Shown here piece after piece: positions 41,514 through 53,619 of a stretch of DNA of 64,000 nt; positions within the stretch are counted from its first letter, which is position 1; each line of letters opens with the position of its first letter. Under the pieces are notes generated by a model. That model saw only the letters and a list, made by a program, of their open reading frames with translations. It was not told where the DNA came from and searched no databases. This DNA is from Dermatophagoides farinae. Lineage: Eukaryota > Arthropoda > Arachnida > Sarcoptiformes > Pyroglyphidae. The translations under genes and the position numbers were made by a program. Location: NCBI RefSeq assembly GCF_024713945.1, contig NC_134677.1, positions 4,033,001 through 4,097,000 of the forward strand. Direction: 5' to 3'.

Positions 41514-44500
41514 ATGGCTCGTCATACAATCGAAATTCCATTGAAAGAATCAGCCGATGAAGTCATTGAGCTTGATTTAGATAATCTGCCCGATACAAAA
41601 GAAGTACTGCAAATTCTTCAATCCGAATCACCACCTTTAAACATCTGGATTCAATTGGCACTTGCTTATTATAAGGAGAAAAAAGAAGACGATTTTGTCC
41701 AGATACTTGAATATTCTCGTACGGAAGCGTCGCTAAGCTATAAAGATTATGAACGTGATCAGATGAAAGCGTTAGATACTTTGGCTGCCTATTATGTGGC
41801 CAAAGGTAATAAAGAAAAGAATCGTGATAGAAAACGAGAACTTTATACAAAAGCAACGGTATTGTATACAAATGCTGACAAGATTGTTATGTATGATCCA
41901 AATCATTTGGTTGGCCGTGCCCATTTCTGTTTAGCCGAAGCTGAAAAGATCGATCAAGCTGATGCACAATTCACATTCGTTTTAAATCAATATCCCAACA
42001 ATATACCGTCATTGTTAGGCAAAGCCTGTATTAATTTCAACAAAAAAGACTACAAAACAGCTTTGACTTTTTATCGCAAATGTTTACGAGTGAAACCGGA
42101 TTGCCCGGCAAATATTCGTCTTGGAATCGGGCATTGTTTCTATAAATTAAACCAAATGGAAAAAGCTAAATTGGCATTCGAACGTGCCCTTCAATTGAAT
42201 CCTCAATGTGTTGGCGCATTGGTTGCATTGGCAATAATGGAACTGAACAAAAAGACACCAGATTCCATACGAAATGGTGTACAAATGTTATCGAAAGCTT
42301 ATTCAATTGATCAAACTCATCCAATGGTATTGAATCATTTGGCAGATCATTTCTTCTTTAAAAAAGATTATGCCAAAGTTCAACATTTAGCATTACATGC
42401 ATTCTATAATACGGAAAATGAGCCTATGCGTGCTGAAAGTTGTTATCAATTAGCTCGAAAATTTCATATCCAAGGTGATTATGATCAAGGATTTCAGTAC
42501 TATTATCAAGCTACACAATTTGCATCACCATCATTCGTTCTTCCATTTTATGGCCTCGGACAGATGTACATTTATCGTGGTGATTTCGATAATGCAGCAT
42601 CTTGTTTTGATAAAGTTTTGAAATATTTTCCCAACAATTATGAAACGATGAAAATTCTCGGCTCACTTTATTCACAATCGGTTGATGGAGAAAAACGAGA
42701 TAAAGCTCGTGAATTTCTGAAAAAAGTTATTGATCAACATCCAGAAGATGTGGAAGCTTGGATTGAATTAGCACAATTGCTTGAACAATCAGATCTACAA
42801 GGTAGAATTTAAATGACTAATTTTGTAAATCATAATTTTTCAATCTCTTCTATAGGAGCATTAAATTGCTATCAGAATGCGATCAAAATATTTCGAGAGA
42901 TTGCCGATCATAATGATAATAATTTGGAGATACCTGCCGAAATTTACAACAATGTTGCCGCATTATATTTTCGTCTGGGAAATTATAAACAATCTGCTGA
43001 TTATTATAAAAGTGCCCTGAAACGATGTCAAGAAGAATTGCAAATCGAAGAACATTATCTTAAATTAATTCAAGTGACAATCAATTATAATCTCGGTCGA
43101 TTATATGAAGCAATTCATGAGTATAACAAAGCTGAACAAATCTATAAGGATATACTACGTGAACATCCTAATTATGTTGATTGTTACCTGCGATTAGGCT
43201 GTATGGCTAGAGATTTAGGTCAAATCTATGAAGCTAGTGATTGGTTTAAAGAAGCGTTGCAAGTGGAAAAAGATCATCCGGATGCCTGGTCATTGATTGG
43301 CAATCTTCATCTAGCCAAACAAGAATATGGTCCTGGTCAGAAAAAATTTGAACGTATTCTGAATCAAGAATCTACCAATCAAGACACATATTCAATCGTT
43401 GCACTTGGTAATGTTTGGTTGCAAACCTTATATCAGCCGACTAAAGATAAGGAAAAAGAACGACGTCATCAGGATCGTGCCATTCAGATGTATAGACAAG
43501 CATTGAAAATTGATCCAAAAAATATTTACGCAGCCAACGGTATTGGTTGTGTTTTAGCACATAAAGGTTATACCAATGAAGCTAGAGACGTATTCTCACA
43601 AGTTCGTGAATCGACAGCCGATTTTCCCGATGTTTGGATTAATATTGCACACATTTATGTTGAATTAAAACAATATGTGAGCGCAATTCAAATGTATGAA
43701 AATTGTCATAAACGATTTTTCCAGAGTACAAATGTCGATATTATGTTGTACATTGCACGTGCCTATTACAAATGGGGTAAAATGCGTCAATGTAAAAATA
43801 TTTTGTTGAAAATTCGTCGTGTATTGCCAAACGATACGTTGATTCTGTTCAACTTGGCATTGGTCTTACAAAAATTGGCTGCTTCAGTTCTGGAAGATAC
43901 AAAAAGTTCATTACGTACCGTTTTACTTGCAGTCCAAGAATTAGGACTTGCATTTAAATATTTTACATATTTAAAAACTAATGGCGATAAAAGTAAATTC
44001 GATTTGGCATGGTGTGCTATCGAAGAACAACGATGTCAAGATTTGTTAAAACAAGCACAATATCATGTAATGAGAGCCAGAACAATGGATGAACAAGAAC
44101 AAGAGATTCGCCGTAAGCAGGAAATGGAACGTGAAGAATTACGAAAGAAACTAATGGAAGAACAACGAGTTCGTGAAGAAGAGAAGATTAAACAAGCACA
44201 GGAATTAATTCAGAAACGGCAGGAATATGTGGAAAAAACGAAAAATATATTACTTTTCCAGGATGTTCCCGAAGAGAAACCGAAAAAGGCTCGTGGTCGT
44301 AAATCTATGGCTAATGATGAAGATGGATTCGTCACTGATTCATCAAGTAATATCGAAAATCGTCCGGATAAGTCGACAAAGAAAAAACGAACCGTTTCGG
44401 ATGGTGATAAAGAAAGGCGACGCCGAAAGAGAAAAAGAACAACTAGTGGTGGTGATACCGATTCGGATGGTGCTGGTGAAGATAATGATGAAGAACGAGC

Positions 44501-45131
44501 TCGAAGACGTGAAGAACGAAAACGAGCTCGAAAAGAATCGAATAAAAAACGGCATGCTATTAAAGCTCGACAACAAGTTGAAAAAGAAATACCAGGTAAA
44601 TTTAAATCAAAAGCTTTCATCAATTCATCAGACTCATCATCAAGCGATGAACCAGAACCGAATGATGAGCCAAACGCTGGAACAATATCTAAAAACATGT
44701 TCGACAGTGACAGTGACGAAGATGTGGTTGGAAAAGCAAGAGCTTCAAGTGATGATAATCAATCACCTATCTATTCAAATGAAGATAATGATGATGAAAT
44801 TGTCAAACAATCGAAAAATAAACGAAAACGTATCAAAAATGATTCATCATCAGATTCGAATGTTAATGATAATGATGATTCGGAAAGCAATGAAGAGCCT
44901 GAAACAAAGAAAAAGAAAATCCCATCTGATGATGAAGACGAAGAAGAAAATAATATTCGCCAAACTACACATAAAAAATCGTTTGAGGATGATAATGATT
45001 CGGATGAATCGGGCTCGAAAAATAGAGGTTCCGATTCAGAAGTGGAAAGAAGTCCAATGACTCGTTCAAGTGATGAAGATGCGGAGAATGATAACGATCA
45101 TGCTAATGATATTGATGATGATAGCGACTGA
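41514..45131 (+). CDS. CTR9: RNA polymerase-associated protein CTR9 (PAF1 complex)
   Basis: TPR scaffold of the PAF1 complex, which travels with RNA polymerase II and promotes histone modification and elongation. Exon 1 is 41514-42801, exon 2 is 42856-45131, with a 54-nt intron splitting a Gly codon (ACAAG|GTAGAA); 1187 aa (human 1173). The N-terminus, [20 protein letters not shown] and [20 protein letters not shown], is diagnostic. Repeated TPR units run to about residue 800; examples are [40 protein letters not shown] and [21 protein letters not shown] coiled, Glu/Arg/Lys-rich segment ([20 protein letters not shown]) follows. The end is a long alternating acidic Ser/Asp and basic tail, as in other CTR9 proteins. 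The low-complexity tail keeps other frames open on both strands; those are shadows. Confidence 0.97.
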
Positions 45132-46545: not shown

Positions 46546-48810
46546 TTAGTGATGATGAATTTTCGACGATATCTTATAATTCAACGTATTATTGTTATTA
46601 TTATTCGAAGTCGATGAATTATCATTATTCGACAATAACATATTGATTTGTTTGAATCGAGCTTGTGGGTTATACATTCGTTGACCTTTATGATGTTCAC
46701 CACCACCACCACCAGATGCACGTAGTAATTTCGTTATATTCAAAACACCATCCAATATAATTTCATCCAATTTTCGTTGTATATCACGTACGGATTCCTG
46801 ATCAAAAAATACATCCGGAAATCGATAGCTTAACCATAGATATAGATCAAGACAATCATAAACGCTTAGTAAATGATCTAATTCGGCCATATTGATCGGT
46901 CGTCGAAATGGAAATTTTAGCGTTTGACACAACCAATTAGCAGTCATTGGTTGATTATTAGAATATTGACGTGCATATTTTAGAAACATCGCGCATACGA
47001 AATTCGATTTGTTATCAACCGGTGCACAACAGAATACATAACGAGCTCTTAATGGTAATGAAATGTGTTCGAGAATTCCGGCCAGAAATTTGATTGATTC
47101 GATATTACACATAAAATAATAGGGATTCAATTGACATAGACTAACAAAAATGTCCAACAAATTCGTTAGGCTCGCATTTGGTAATAGAAAAGAGAACATT
47201 TCGATCTGATCTAATGTTGGATGTAGGCCAGCAGCTTCAATATCTTCAATCGGTGAGGCTAAAACTTCTTTGAGAATCGGTAGATCTTCCGGTTTGTATG
47301 TCGTAACATAGCCTTGATGGTATTGAGTGTTGTATCGACCGGCTCTACCGGCAATTTGTAACGCCTGACTAACCGGTATAACATCCAATGTTTTTTCATT
47401 TTTACTATTAAATGTTGGTTTGATCAACGAATAGAAAATAATTCGTCGAATTGAAAGATTTAATCCCATACCGATAGCATCGGTAGCAACGAGTATATTG
47501 CATGGATCATTTGGATTATTATATTTACTACATTGCAATAACTTGGTGGCTGGTGGTAATGTTCCATAGATAGTAGCCACATTGTGACCCATTCTTTCTA
47601 GCTTAAGGCTAACATTATAAATGTCTCGCTTGCTGAAACAAACTATACAATCACCAGGTTGAACATTTTCCAACGATTCCAGAGCATTATCTTCGACATT
47701 TAATTCGGTAAGACGTTTATATTCATTAATTTGAACAACTTCACCGGTGGTTGATAGAATTTCGATGATAAGATTAAGGGCAGCTTTTTCACCACAAAGA
47801 TGAATCTCTTCTGCAGCAATCCCAAGAAGAGCACGTGTCCAAGCCCAACCACGTTCAGGATCACGAACCATTTGAATTTCATCAATGATTGCTACTTCGT
47901 ACATTTGATTTACAGATGACATTTCAACAGTACAGGAAACATGAGCAGAAGGTGACTGATTTTCATCGGAAAATCGACGTTCTTCACCCGTAATTAGATC
48001 ACATGCTACACCTGCATTATTGGCTTTTTGAAAAACTTCGACGGCAAGCATCTTGAGTGGACCACAGTAGATACCGGATTTAGATTCTAAAAAACGATTC
48101 AAAGCACTATAAGTTTTGCCACTGTTAGTCGGACCACAATGAAAATAAAATTTTCGATTTATTGTCCGTGCTTCTGGATACCAATTTGGCGGCAAACGAA
48201 GGTCACTGATTTTCTTTAAATCATCCAGACAATCAATGTGAGGATATATGGTTTTAGCATGTTTGATAAATGATGGGAATAGATCATCTACGTGTCCTTT
48301 ACCTTGTAGAATATCACTCAATAAAATATGAATTTCTGGATCAAGAATTTTAGAATCAAGAATTTTTTTTCGAAAACTTGAAAATGCTTCTATCAGTAAT
48401 TTAGGTTTGAGTCCATTTTCAGCTGCCAATTGTCTAACAGTTGGCCTTTGAAGAAATTTATTCAATAAGGGTATAATTTCTTCTTTTAACAATTTTCGTC
48501 CGGTTATCTCTTCACCAATATCACCCCATTCATCGGAAAACTGTGTAGAATGATCTTGTCCAGGCTGTACCAATGTGTCAATGTTTTTGTCTTTTATTTC
48601 ATTGTCATTAGGCGATGGCAATGATGATGACGATGATGATGATGATGAACAAAATCGGATACTTATTTGATTATTATTGAACAACGATATGTGAGGTGGT
48701 CTGTCAATTATTCGAATATTGACCATACGTGATAGTATGGCAGGAGTGTTTGTCGTTACAATCCGACATTGTGGTATACTACGTAGATAACATCGCAGAG
48801 AAATACGCAT
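46546..48810 (-). CDS. SUPV3L1: ATP-dependent RNA helicase SUV3 (mitochondrial)
   Basis: Mitochondrial-matrix DExH/Ski2-like helicase that unwinds RNA for the PNPase degradosome. One exon of 754 codons (human 786). The Arg-rich start (MRISLRCYLRSIPQCRIV) reads as a mitochondrial presequence. The Walker A is FHCGPTNSGKT (about residue 220). SGIYCGPLKMLAVEV, the Walker B IDEIQM, DPERGWAWTRALLG, the motif IV-VI series ATDAIGMGLNLSIRRIIF and the arginine-finger motif QIAGRAGR follow in order. The C-terminal SUV3 domain is present (LYLWLSYRFPDVFFDQ). It ends in a Gly/Asn-rich tail. Converges on SEC13 with only 135 bp between stop codons and diverges from DLAT. Confidence 0.97.
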   Translation of the reverse strand: MRISLRCYLRSIPQCRIVTTNTPAILSRMVNIRIIDRPPHISLFNNNQISIRFCSSSSSSSSSLPSPNDNEIKDKNIDTLVQPGQDHSTQFSDEWGDIGEEITGRKLLKEEIIPLLNKFLQRPTVRQLAAENGLKPKLLIEAFSSFRKKILDSKILDPEIHILLSDILQGKGHVDDLFPSFIKHAKTIYPHIDCLDDLKKISDLRLPPNWYPEARTINRKFYFHCGPTNSGKTYSALNRFLESKSGIYCGPLKMLAVEVFQKANNAGVACDLITGEERRFSDENQSPSAHVSCTVEMSSVNQMYEVAIIDEIQMVRDPERGWAWTRALLGIAAEEIHLCGEKAALNLIIEILSTTGEVVQINEYKRLTELNVEDNALESLENVQPGDCIVCFSKRDIYNVSLKLERMGHNVATIYGTLPPATKLLQCSKYNNPNDPCNILVATDAIGMGLNLSIRRIIFYSLIKPTFNSKNEKTLDVIPVSQALQIAGRAGRYNTQYHQGYVTTYKPEDLPILKEVLASPIEDIEAAGLHPTLDQIEMFSFLLPNASLTNLLDIFVSLCQLNPYYFMCNIESIKFLAGILEHISLPLRARYVFCCAPVDNKSNFVCAMFLKYARQYSNNQPMTANWLCQTLKFPFRRPINMAELDHLLSVYDCLDLYLWLSYRFPDVFFDQESVRDIQRKLDEIILDGVLNITKLLRASGGGGGEHHKGQRMYNPQARFKQINMLLSNNDNSSTSNNNNNNTLNYKISSKIHHH

Positions 48811-49244
48811 TTTTTACACAAATTCAGGGAAAATAAATGGTTTCTATACAAATGCAACAATTAGTATTGATATAAAGAATTTGATTAATTATACCATTAC
48901 AAGAATTAAATATTTGAGAAACATTTGAATCAACATTAATCACATGTGTGTGTGTGATAATTTGATGCCATGGCACAACGCACAAACGTTAACATGTGGG
49001 AAATTGTTACCAATCAAAACAGATTTCTTCAAACAGATGTCACTACAATCGGGTGTTTTTCATATGATTTGACCCCAGCTGAATTTCGAGGATTTTGGAT
49101 ATATACAATCTTTAAATCAGGAAAATAAAATTAAAAAGGCATCGATCTATGTAAGATTCATTTTTTTTGATTCAAAATCATCGTTCAAAACAAACTTTGC
49201 CACAGTAGATTCGCTGATTACCTAATTCAGCAATCCAAACAAAA
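48811..49244. promoter_or_regulatory. Divergent promoter SUV3 / original DLAT promoter
   Basis: 434 bp between outward-facing starts of two nuclear-encoded mitochondrial genes. Bases 49094-49244 of this interval are repeated at 51752-51902 before the second DLAT start. So the second copy inherits only the proximal 151 bp, while 48811-49093 is unique to the first. No TATA box is evident. A short TG repeat is at 48942-48956. Confidence 0.6.
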
Positions 49245-49917
49245 ATGTTTCGTATGACATTGATGTATAATTCGAAAAATTTATGCCGTTTAAAGCTATT
49301 GACCAGGAATCGGATTCTTGTTGCTTGTTGGGGAATTAATGGATACGATACTACAATTGAAACAACAACTTCATCAAGTATACGTTTGATAAATTCATAT
49401 GTGAATAATAATGTTGATAAAAGGTTAGTTCTGTTTCATTGTTTTGTACACATGTTGATTGTTTGCATTTTTATTCAGATTCATTGTTCCGATTTCAAAT
49501 AAACGGACGTTTAGTTCTGGTAATTTACCAACTCATTATAAGGTTGCATTACCTGCGTTATCACCTACCATGGAAATGGGTACGATTGTTTCCTGGGAAA
49601 AGAAAGAAGGTGATCGTTTGAATGAAGGAGATTTATTAGCCGAAATCGAAACGGATAAAGCAACAATGGGTTTTGAAACACCAGAAGAAGGTTATCTAGC
49701 AAAAATTTTAATACCGGCTGGTACAAAAGATATTCCCATTGGAAAAGTATGAAGTTTTTGTTATTCTAAACTTGACATTTATTCTTTTACCCTTACGATT
49801 CACAGTTATTATGCATAATAGTTCCGGAGCAAAGCGATATTGACGCCTTTGTCAATTATGTGCCTACAGAATCATCTACCAGTGAAAAAACGCCGAAAAA
49901 AACAAGTGAACCCCCGA
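49094..49917 (+). repeat. 824-bp direct repeat, copy A (DLAT 5' region)
   Basis: Identical as far as I can read to 51752-52575 (constant offset 2658). It spans 151 bp of upstream DNA, exons 1 and 2, both introns and 112 nt of exon 3 of DLAT. Identity extends through introns and untranslated DNA, so the duplication is very recent, gene-converted, or an assembly duplication. Confidence 0.95.
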
Positions 49918-50186
49918 TTTTCACAGAAAAGAAAGTGTGGAGACTGGTCTCCAAATTTGCTGACTGTTTCTCCAAATTTGGAGACTGGTCTCCAATATTG
50001 CCGACTACTCTACAAAAATGGAGACTAGTCTTCAAATTTGGAGAAACAGACAGCAAATTTGGAGACCAGTCTCCAAAAATGAGTGCTAAAAAAATTTCGA
50101 TTGTTTTTCGATTGTTAGTTGAAAACTTTAAAAACTTTAAAATTTCTACAAGTCCAACTAATGAGCAACTGCGCATAGTCATATAG
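49245..50186 (+). pseudogene. Truncated first copy of DLAT
   Basis: Exons 49245-49423, 49479-49746 and 49806 onward encode the same presequence, lipoyl domain and the first 37 residues of exon 3 as the full gene. After KKTSEPP (to 49917) the frame runs into the inverted-repeat insert and continues with unrelated residues to a stop at 50186. It lacks the E3-binding and catalytic domains, so alone it could give only a free lipoyl-domain protein. It keeps the distal promoter next to SUV3. A transcript starting here and splicing exon 2 (49746) to the exon 3 acceptor of copy B (52463) would restore a normal DLAT mRNA. Confidence 0.8.
49938..50074. repeat. Long hairpin at the left end of the insert
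   Basis: The left arm (about 49938-49994) and right arm (about 50016-50074) are reverse complements with only a few mismatches, separated by about 20 nt. Each arm has the order GGAGACTGGTCTCC, AAATTTG, CTGACTGTTTCTCC, AAATTTGGAGACTGG. As RNA or single-stranded DNA it would fold into a stem of about 57 bp. Confidence 0.85.
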
Positions 50187-50559
50187 AGATAGTGCAGCTA
50201 ACTATTTTCAATACAAATGTTGTGCCCTTCTATTCCCCATACGAATTTGAATTATTTTTTTGATGACTTGCATTTTTTTCTATTTTAATCGTGAAAATTT
50301 TTGCACTAAATTTTGGAACAAAGAATTTAATCAATTCAAGATTATCGTTGTTCAAAGTTATTGTGGTCTAGAAAATTGGCCTCAAAATCAATGAAGATCG
50401 TTTAGTTCGGTCATCATGTAATAATGATACAAGTTGGCGAAAAAATTCCATTTTCGATGACTTTCAAATGTATTTATCACATTTTGTTTTTCATCAAATT
50501 GTATTCAATCACATCCTTTTTAAGTTTTCTTTTTCAGAGTCCATTATACTTGATAATTG

Positions 50560-51460
50560 GAATTCGGATTAATATATAAAAACATGGTCAATAAGGTAAT
50601 TTACATTTTGCCTTAGATTGAAAATGCTAACAATTTTCCTTGTCTTTTGAAGCATAAAATTTTCATTGATGATCAATGATCATTAGACATATAATTGGTG
50701 TCGTCTTTAGAAAAACGATCATGGTAATGATGCCGAACAGTACAAATTTATTGGCGGATATCTGGTCACTAACATGGTACGATGTCCAATGAAACATGTT
50801 CAGCATCAGGTAACTTTGGAATTTCGCTACCAATCAATAATTCTAACACTTACATTTCTCAAAAGTCTATTCAGAACATGCCTGCTTTTGGTTGAATTGT
50901 CGGAACAACTTATTTAGTAAGTCGACATATTCATTTTTCATATCTGATAAAGATTCGTCTATTTTTTCTTATTAGATTCGCTAAAATTTTACGATCAACA
51001 AGTTGAAATTCGACTTATGATTATGTTCAAGATCAATTCGGCGTTTCCATTGTTCATCAGCATCCAATTCAAGAATAGTTTGGCAATGTTCAACACTTGA
51101 TAATAGGTTAGGCTAGGGTTAGATTAGGCTTAGGAACATGATCTGAGCTATTTCCTATTGAATTCGTTGCTGATTGAAACTTTGGAATCAATGAAGCGAT
51201 TGACAATTACGATTAATAGTCGAAGATTCACGAACTGGAACATACACTCGAAACTGATAATGGTAAGCAAATGAATGGATTAATTGAAAAAACAACTAAT
51301 ATTTATTTTCGTTTAGGATCACCGGTGAACAATTTGGAAATTGAATCTCGAATCATGGATTGAATTTGGTCATTGACTTGGAACTTGGACCGCGAATTAC
51401 GGATTTATTTCAAACGAGGCAATTAACGTTGAATGGCGTAATTGGGGTGTGAAATATGAA
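50560..51460 (+). pseudogene. Decayed exon-intron cargo inside the insert
   Basis: Traces of a spliced gene. A TATATAAAAA lies just before ATG at about 50584 (MVNK, then a GTAATT donor). A TCTTTAG acceptor at about 50709 joins in phase to a 33-codon exon (EQYKFIGGYLVTNMVRCP) that ends at a GTAACT donor. Further AG/GT-bounded segments follow, with protein-like patches (YDYVQDQFGVSIVHQHPIQE; GTWTANYGFISNEAINVEW) but in-frame stops and shifting frames. I do not recognise the family. It looks like a host-gene fragment captured by the element and then decayed; chance splice-like sites are the alternative. Confidence 0.3.
51104..51136 (+). repeat. Short degenerate TTAGG-like tract
   Basis: AGGTTAGGCTAGGGTTAGAT followed by TAGGCTTAGG: five TTAGG/CTAGG/TTAGGC-type units. 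Arthropod telomeres are usually (TTAGG)n, so this may be an interstitial telomeric scar inside the insert, or a chance run. Confidence 0.4.
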
Positions 51461-51647
51461 TGCATTTTATTATTTCAAATATTTTAATCAATTAATATAA
51501 CAATAAAATCATTTATCATTTGAATTTCAATATATCGATTAAATTAATATGGGGGATAAAAAGAATAGAAGGGGGACAAATTGCTGCAACAATCGTGATG
51601 GACGATACTATCGATAGTCAAATCGTTAAATCGTTCACTCAAAATTT

Positions 51648-51735
51648 TGATGGAGACTGGTCTCCAAATTTGGAGAGAAGTCTTCAAATTCAGAGTATTG
51701 CGTAAATCTTCAAATTTGGAGACCAGTCTCCACGT
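51648..51735. repeat. Hairpin at the right end of the insert
   Basis: GGAGACTGGTCTCCAAATTT at the left and AAATTTGGAGACCAGTCTCC at the right, with inner TCTTCAAATT units and a loop of about 25 nt. It uses the same module as the left-end hairpin, so both ends of the insert are foldback-type. Confidence 0.8.
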
Positions 51736-51751
51736 TACTTTTTTTGCTGTG

Positions 51752-52575
51752 TTTGGATATATACAATCTTTAAATCAGGAAAATAAAATTAAAAAGGCAT
51801 CGATCTATGTAAGATTCATTTTTTTTGATTCAAAATCATCGTTCAAAACAAACTTTGCCACAGTAGATTCGCTGATTACCTAATTCAGCAATCCAAACAA
51901 AAATGTTTCGTATGACATTGATGTATAATTCGAAAAATTTATGCCGTTTAAAGCTATTGACCAGGAATCGGATTCTTGTTGCTTGTTGGGGAATTAATGG
52001 ATACGATACTACAATTGAAACAACAACTTCATCAAGTATACGTTTGATAAATTCATATGTGAATAATAATGTTGATAAAAGGTTAGTTCTGTTTCATTGT
52101 TTTGTACACATGTTGATTGTTTGCATTTTTATTCAGATTCATTGTTCCGATTTCAAATAAACGGACGTTTAGTTCTGGTAATTTACCAACTCATTATAAG
52201 GTTGCATTACCTGCGTTATCACCTACCATGGAAATGGGTACGATTGTTTCCTGGGAAAAGAAAGAAGGTGATCGTTTGAATGAAGGAGATTTATTAGCCG
52301 AAATCGAAACGGATAAAGCAACAATGGGTTTTGAAACACCAGAAGAAGGTTATCTAGCAAAAATTTTAATACCGGCTGGTACAAAAGATATTCCCATTGG
52401 AAAAGTATGAAGTTTTTGTTATTCTAAACTTGACATTTATTCTTTTACCCTTACGATTCACAGTTATTATGCATAATAGTTCCGGAGCAAAGCGATATTG
52501 ACGCCTTTGTCAATTATGTGCCTACAGAATCATCTACCAGTGAAAAAACGCCGAAAAAAACAAGTGAACCCCCGA
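51752..52575 (+). repeat. 824-bp direct repeat, copy B (start of the full DLAT gene)
   Basis: Second copy of 49094-49917. The shared sequence ends at CCCCCGA. Copy B continues with native DLAT exon 3 (AATCACAACC), while copy A continues into the insert. Left of copy B is the CTGTG end of the insert. Confidence 0.95.
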
Positions 52576-53619
52576 AATCACAACCACCATATACGGTGCA
52601 ACAAACAAAAACAGACGCAACACCGGAAAAACCAGCCACAGTTGCAGCCTCAATGCCTCGTTCACAACCGATTGTAAGCCAAATTTTTACCGGTACTGCA
52701 GGACGAATATTTGCTAGTCCACTTGCAAAAACAATAGCCAAGGAAAAAGGGATTGATCTCGCAAGATTATCAGGCAGTGGACCAAGCGGTCGAATTCGTG
52801 CTCAAGATGTAATAAATGCACCATCAATGTTGGCCATGACAATGACTCCCTCCATGATGACATCATTCGAAGATATTCCAATGACAAATATGCGACAAGT
52901 CATTGCTAAACGATTGATGATGTCTAAACAAACCATACCGCATTATTATTTAACTGCCGAAATCGAAGTCGACGAAATTCTTAGGTATGCTGAAAAAAAT
53001 ACAATTTTTCCAACCAATAGATTTAATGAAAAAATTTTCCATTTGTTATAGGGCGAGAGAACAACTGAATGAAATGCTCAAATCTGAAAACACTAAACTA
53101 TCCGTGAATGATTTTTTAATCAAAGCATCGGCTTTGGCATGCCAAAAAGTACCGCAGGTTAATTCATCATGGCAAGATACATTTATACGCCAATATAATT
53201 CAGTCGATATATCAGTAGCGGTCAGTACGGATGCAGGACTCATCACGCCAATCATTTTTGGTGCCGAGAAAAAAGGTCTGATCGAAATATCTAATGATGT
53301 AAAAGCTTTAGCCAAAAAAGCACGTGATGGTAAATTACAACCACAAGAATTTCAAGGTGGTACATTCACCATATCAAATCTGGGCATGTTTGGTGTAACA
53401 GAATTTTCAGCAGTCATCAATCCACCACAATCATGTATATTAGCTGTCGGTAATACTGAAAAACGTTTAGTACCGGGTGGAGATAATAAACCACGATCAG
53501 CCAGCCTATTAACGGTGACATTAAGCTGTGATCATCGTGTCGTTGATGGTGCTGTGGGTGCAACTTGGTTGAAACATTTTCGACAATTGATATCTAAACC
53601 ATTTAGCATGATGCTTTAG
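51903..53619 (+). CDS. DLAT: Dihydrolipoyllysine acetyltransferase, E2 of pyruvate dehydrogenase
   Basis: Mitochondrial core enzyme passing the acetyl group from lipoate to CoA. Exons: 51903-52081, 52137-52404, 52464-52984 and 53052-53619; 511 aa. Residues 1-60 form a targeting presequence. One lipoyl domain follows ([20 protein letters not shown], lipoylated K120 in [12 protein letters not shown]). After a Pro/Thr linker comes the E3/E1-binding domain ([33 protein letters not shown]). The catalytic acyltransferase domain carries [13 protein letters not shown] with active-site H484 and D488. One lipoyl domain instead of the two of vertebrates is usual in invertebrates. The first three exons are also present in truncated copy A upstream. 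If this copy is transcribed from its own start, only 151 bp of native upstream DNA remain before the inserted element. Confidence 0.96.

Follow-up and report, generated by a model that had tools for sequence, protein, structure and literature searches.

An 824-bp partial DLAT repeat around a TIR transposon in the Dermatophagoides farinae assembly, with a false tandem duplication as the favoured reading

In the window (the whole 64-kb stretch of Dermatophagoides farinae DNA that was analysed), an 824-bp segment covering the beginning of the DLAT gene is present twice, with what its sequence identifies as a native transposon lying between the two copies. Our favoured reading, to which we give a probability of about 0.55, is that of a false tandem duplication, made during assembly at a heterozygous insertion of this transposon. 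As to the repeat itself, which had been described in the first-pass annotation, this is confirmed, with copies A and B showing no difference over 824 of 824 positions and the match extending no further in either direction. When the window was compared with itself by megablast (28-base word), this was the sole repeat with a length of ≥100 bp and an identity of ≥85%, and a genome search of the 62.4-Mb assembly with the 824-bp segment returned two matches, both at the DLAT locus. A chance origin of the repeat is out of the question. It should be said that the repeat is beyond doubt for the assembly only, and its presence in the mite is not settled. In the 64-kb window, no N runs, no Rfam matches at gathering scores, and no tandem arrays scoring at least 150 were found. 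The features of the locus are as follows.

48001-48810, minus strand: 5′ part of SUV3 (mitochondrial helicase), with its start codon at 48810; the gene continues past 48001
48811-49244, no strand: stretch separating the start codons of SUV3 and DLAT (434 bp), containing the native insertion site
49094-49917, plus strand: repeat copy A, made up of 151 bp of upstream DNA, DLAT exon 1, exon 2, and the first 112 bp of exon 3
49245-49423, 49479-49746, and 49806-49917, plus strand: exon 1, exon 2, and part of exon 3 in DLAT copy A
49245-50186, plus strand: truncated reading of copy A, from exons 1A, 2A, and 3A into the transposon (275 aa)
49918-49921, plus strand: TTTT, seemingly native sequence flanking the inserted transposon on the left
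49919-49921, plus strand: left target-site duplication (TSD) TTT, the last three bases of TTTT
49922-51751, plus strand: 1830-bp non-autonomous TIR transposon with CACAG...CTGTG ends and GGAGACNNGTCTCC palindromes close to each end
51752-51754, plus strand: right TSD TTT, also the opening bases of copy B
51752-52575, plus strand: repeat copy B, with 824/824 identity to copy A
51903-53619, plus strand: complete DLAT (pyruvate dehydrogenase E2, 511 aa)
51903-52081, 52137-52404, 52464-52984, and 53052-53619, plus strand: the four exons of the complete DLAT

The SUV3 and DLAT genes

For SUV3, the Pfam hits were Suv3_N (E 2.1e-36) and DEXQc_Suv3 (E 4.7e-26). The exon model of DLAT was built from splice signals and the open frame, and its 511-aa product carries the lipoyl, E3-binding, and 2-oxoacid_dh Pfam domains, with a pyruvate dehydrogenase acetyltransferase as the best PDB chain (E 5.4e-188). 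The 275-aa product of copy A has the lipoyl domain only. Here, the first-pass annotation had described copy A as truncated and copy B as complete with just 151 bp of native upstream DNA, and both descriptions hold. It had also suggested that DLAT expression may depend on splicing from exon 2A over the insert to exon 3B. Such a splice would indeed yield an intact coding sequence, and, because the two copies are identical, the predicted 2A-3B product is the same as that of copy B. Copy B itself retains its own start codon and may retain a core promoter.

The inserted element and its family

The 1834 bp that separate copies A and B consist of TTTT (49918-49921) and a 1830-bp mobile element (49922-51751). 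This insert had been called foreign-looking, an origin that we reject since the genome search matched it to copies of a native mite family, with at least 83 matching pieces in all. Among these, insert bases 5-1834 match contig C4 at about 100%, and the aligned twin copy (C4:3203296-3205125) has 1 mismatch in 1830 and flanks that are different from those of the window copy. A near-identical copy at an unrelated site marks the insert as mobile, and, on its sequence, it is a non-autonomous transposon of a native family with terminal inverted repeats (TIRs). By eye, the first 38 and last 41 bases of the element are inverted copies of each other, differing by a 3-base length offset and a few mismatches. 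The GGAGACNNGTCTCC palindromes number five in the element, and none were found in the rest of the 64-kb window. The element has no transposase frame, its longest open frame being 92 aa. When the genome was scanned with the exact TIR pattern, 10 places were found (the right end of the insert included) and the backwards control gave 0, whereas a scan allowing one mismatch gave 17 places against 18 in the control, so these latter places are mostly due to chance.

CACAG termini are shared by the window copy, whose TSD is TTT, and five other copies in which both ends were read. All five of these have 3-bp TSDs, in a count that leaves out relatives with one or both ends not located. The five copies are the following.

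Twin copy on contig C4: TSD ATC
L033, L034, and L035: longer relatives of about 3.46 kb with CACAG...CTGTG ends; TSDs TTA, AAT, and TGT, respectively
L052: 116-bp piece with CACAG...CTGTG ends; TSD AAA

CACTA (EnSpm) transposons are characterized by a 3-bp TSD, CACTA or CACTG termini, and repeated subterminal motifs. The insert is like these in its 3-bp TSD, its CAC-starting ends, and its repeated subterminal motifs, but unlike them in that the ends read CACAG (and not CACTA or CACTG) and in that no transposase was found. On its sequence, the element resembles CACTA in its 3-bp TSD while ending in CACAG, and we leave it without a superfamily. A search of the genome for Transposase_21 gave three hits, and the termini of the two elements compared, on C1 and C5, differ from those of the insert. 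Moreover, the C1 element shows no similarity to the insert, and the Transposase_21 element examined in the mite genome belongs to another family. In the C5 and C4 relatives of the insert (4434 bp aligned), no transposase-like frame was recognised in the ORF listings, and no autonomous partner was found among the two Transposase_21 elements and these relatives. Our search of the literature for TIR transposable elements of Dermatophagoides found no papers.

The way in which this family inserts bears directly on the origin of the repeat. Within 1.1-1.5 kb of flank, and with a 28-base word, none of the five other two-ended copies has flanking repeats, which indicates that the repeat is not this element's mode of insertion. 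In the first-pass annotation, the 824-bp duplication was taken as one that the insertion had left. This, and with it a giant (824-bp) TSD, we reject, as the family makes 3-bp TSDs (in all five of the other two-ended copies), long flanking repeats are absent from the same five, and the element here carries its own TTT. That an insertion is accompanied by a very recent, or else artefactual, partial duplication of DLAT is nonetheless supported.

Letters at the junction

The native sequence leading into copy A is ...GAGGAT/TTTGGATATA. At its other end, copy A closes with ...CCCCCGA, after which come TTTT, the element, and the TTTGGATATA of copy B, while DLAT in copy B continues past the repeat as ...CCCCCGA/AATCACAACC. 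Since TTTT is missing from the C4 twin and is not a continuation of DLAT, it reads as a native flank of the element. Given a TSD of TTT, the pre-insertion site would be GATTTTGGATATA, which is just the sequence present natively upstream of DLAT, as GGAT/TTT/GGATATA at about 49094-49096. Because the element and its TSD fit this native site, the window reads as a transposable element (TE)-free allele and then a TE-bearing allele. Of these, the TE-free part runs from the left flank to CCCCCGA, and the TE-bearing part starts 4 bp outside the element.

At the join, 2 bp (GA) are common to both sides. Among 199,381 trials of random joins in the window, at least 2 bp were shared in 20%, and so the GA match means little. 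What is informative is that the join lies beside the element. Its edge on the TE side is 4 bp away from where the alleles diverge, and its edge on the DLAT side falls at an unremarkable position within exon 3.

False join and real duplication

In the genome analysed, a group-2 allergen fragment agrees with Der f 2 at 114 of 115 positions and has a lower score against Der p 2. For the D. farinae assembly (GCA_024713945.1), about 3,000 mites were collected, presumably as a pool, and the heterozygosity is given as 0.52% (PMC11074847). A heterozygous TE insertion is likely in such a sample. In our favoured reading, a young 1830-bp TIR transposon would have landed between SUV3 and DLAT, roughly 150 bp ahead of the DLAT start codon and with TTT as the TSD, in only a part of the mites in the sequenced culture. 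During assembly, the left flank and 824 bp of the TE-free allele would then have been put end to end with the TTTT-TE-DLAT allele, probably by joining a TE-free contig or consensus segment that ended within exon 3 to a TE-bearing one. With trimming only to about the point of allele divergence, the 824 bp beyond it would appear twice. Each real chromosome would have one normal DLAT, with or without the upstream transposon. Should the duplication be false, then the partial DLAT gene in this public chromosome-level mite assembly is spurious, and what the locus really shows is a young transposon, possibly polymorphic, that lies between SUV3 and DLAT.

Alleles assembled as paralogues, including partial exon sets on one scaffold, are documented (PMC9516828), and the DLAT locus is like the false heterotype duplications described there in having two alleles adjacent, a partial gene copy on the same scaffold, and a heterozygous sample. 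It is unlike them in that the DLAT copies are without a gap and without allelic differences. False duplications may be recognized by half read depth over the copies, haplotype-specific k-mers, and discordant pairs. As gaps between duplicated pairs are also listed among their main signs (PMC9516828), the lack of one between copies A and B counts against a false join. So does the perfect identity, since about 4 of the 824 sites would be expected to differ at 0.52% (P(0) = 0.014, rising to between 0.08 and 0.19 at 0.3 to 0.2% divergence). Polishing was carried out with NextPolish and Pilon (PMC11074847), and where short reads are ambiguous this could erase allelic differences. Also counting against a false join are the BUSCO duplication of just 1.2% (35/2934; PMC11074847) and the lack of any other perfect local duplication in the window or the 20 loci L033-L052 (megablast, 28-base word).

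In favour of a false join, the assembly was obtained by merging FALCON, WTDBG2, and Flye assemblies with Quickmerge; its contig N50 is given as 273 kb for one stage, with 22 contigs and 100 bp of gap in the final version, and its size is 62.43 Mb versus a k-mer estimate of 59.35 Mb (PMC11074847). For one merged contig, the Quickmerge authors reported 18 discrepancies, duplications included, which they traced to the input assemblies, with none at 29 splice joints; they worked with a haploid cell line and with flies that were isogenic or inbred, material in which heterozygosity could not be tested (PMC5100563). With the reported discrepancies coming from the inputs and not from the splice joints, the merge step is not implicated in print, and a false join could have come from any one of the assemblers. 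In a Quickmerge fly assembly, partial-gene tandem duplications are listed among the structural variants, and the advice of those authors is to weigh contiguity against local misassembly (PMC6169397).

A false join and a repair-made duplication both belong to known kinds, and the assembly sequence by itself cannot separate the former from a real duplication. We regard as a serious alternative, albeit a less probable one, a real tandem duplication, in which homology repair of a break beside the TE failed and end joining then sealed it. Here, the break would lie on the outer side of the left TSD, at the short gap that an incomplete integration would leave, and the left end would copy about 820 bp from a TE-free homologue, fail to anneal back, and be joined to the end with the TE via the 2 bp GA. 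This would produce left flank - copy A - TTTT-TE - DLAT, which is the exact structure in one step, and this route would explain why the join is 1-3 bp outside the TSD and why one TE only is present. Perfect identity of the copies suits a very recent event, though copying from a homologue should usually introduce some differences. Moreover, C. elegans helq-1 mutants gain tandem duplications that range from about 100 bp up to 10 kb, with a median near 1 kb, and that have microhomology at their junctions, for which a failed-SDSA route is described (PMC8654963). The DLAT repeat is like these in its size (824 bp) and short-microhomology junction, but differs in that its junction holds a transposon and that the template would be a TE-free homologue. 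The worm duplications are described mainly in the repair mutant and as rare in wild-type worms (PMC8654963). While 824-bp direct repeats with a 2-bp GA junction are what failed SDSA would leave, a microhomology of at least 2 bp arises by chance in the same 20% of random joins, and no such duplication is seen at any of the five other two-ended copies. At a slightly lower probability, the full chain may be proposed of a real allele in which an integration gap became a double-strand break, an 820-bp homologue copy and end joining duplicated the promoter-proximal half of DLAT, and a normal message could still be made via 2A-3B splicing. If real, the locus would tie a fresh transposon insertion to the duplication, through repair, of a gene of central metabolism, and would offer a junction-level snapshot of a failed-SDSA duplication in a wild-type arthropod, and an example of how splicing could buffer a partial DLAT duplication.

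Other orders of events fit the letters less readily. It is improbable that a TE upstream of DLAT was tandemly duplicated together with the 824 bp and that the first TE was then excised precisely or lost by conversion, for this requires two events and a footprint-free excision, and no second element is found beside the DLAT one in the assembly; in its favour, the left site is the exact pre-insertion sequence for a TTT duplication, and TTT repeats could permit a clean loss. We consider it very improbable that an 824/825-bp tandem duplication came first and that the transposon landed at its junction later. There, the junction CCCCCGA/TTTTGGATATA would hold the same TTT target, but the element would have had to insert independently no more than 4 bp from the junction, out of the 1.65 kb of the repeat, and no TE-free tandem copy was found in the genome search.

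The element's own transposition chemistry may also be considered. Animal TIR transposons are reported to gain nearby sequence inside the element by gap filling with short microhomology (PMC8277862). The DLAT locus is like this Pack-TIR gap filling in that a TIR transposon is tied to a duplicate of nearby sequence and a short microhomology, but Pack-TIR elements are described as having the captured sequence within them and breakpoints skewed to the interior, whereas the DLAT element is intact with the join outside it. That an alternative transposition (reversed-ends or sister-chromatid) by the element made the duplication is the least probable origin of all, verging on the negligible. Maize Ac/Ds elements do yield tandem direct duplications with a transposon at the junction (PMC3744419), and the DLAT locus is like the Ac/Ds and hAT reversed-ends duplications in having a transposon flanked by two direct repeats. 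In these, however, the breakpoint is described as exactly at the transposon end and the TSD of the middle element as one-sided (PMC3744419), whereas the DLAT breakpoint is outside an intact TSD pair and not at a transposon terminus. Reversed-ends transposition is contradicted by these junction letters, with TTT on both sides of the element and one further native T outside.

Relatives of the insert and its native site

Relatives of the transposon lying between the DLAT repeats were recovered from the same assembly:

Loci L036 with L059 (contig C5) and L038 with L060 (contig C4): relatives of the insert, aligned over 4434 bp, in which no left end was located

Here, both the core (~87%) and the CTGTG end are common to these relatives and the insert, though their subterminal sequence (GCGAGTACTCGC) differs from that of the insert. 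One possibility is that subfamilies have traded cores and ends. Locus L044 (C3:3147500-3156500) carries a tandem duplication whose units, 98.1% identical, repeat every 4.2 kb; each unit contains the right part of this transposon family adjoining a 355-aa open frame.

In the window, SUV3 and DLAT are divergent mitochondrial genes whose start codons lie 434 bp apart (48811-49244); a transposon inserted at the native site would lie between the two.

A separate Transposase_21 element

L064 847-5716 (C1:3949500-3957500): 4.87-kb element, with a second copy at L065 (C5)

This element, with ends ACCCTGGTAGTGCG, encloses a 926-aa open frame with a Transposase_21 match, and the two copies compared (C1 and C5) are 100% identical. 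Its activity looks recent. A third Transposase_21 match is located on C9.

Base composition

Among the 1-kb bins of the window, A-over-T skew peaks at 44001-45000, where it is strong (0.35, + strand).
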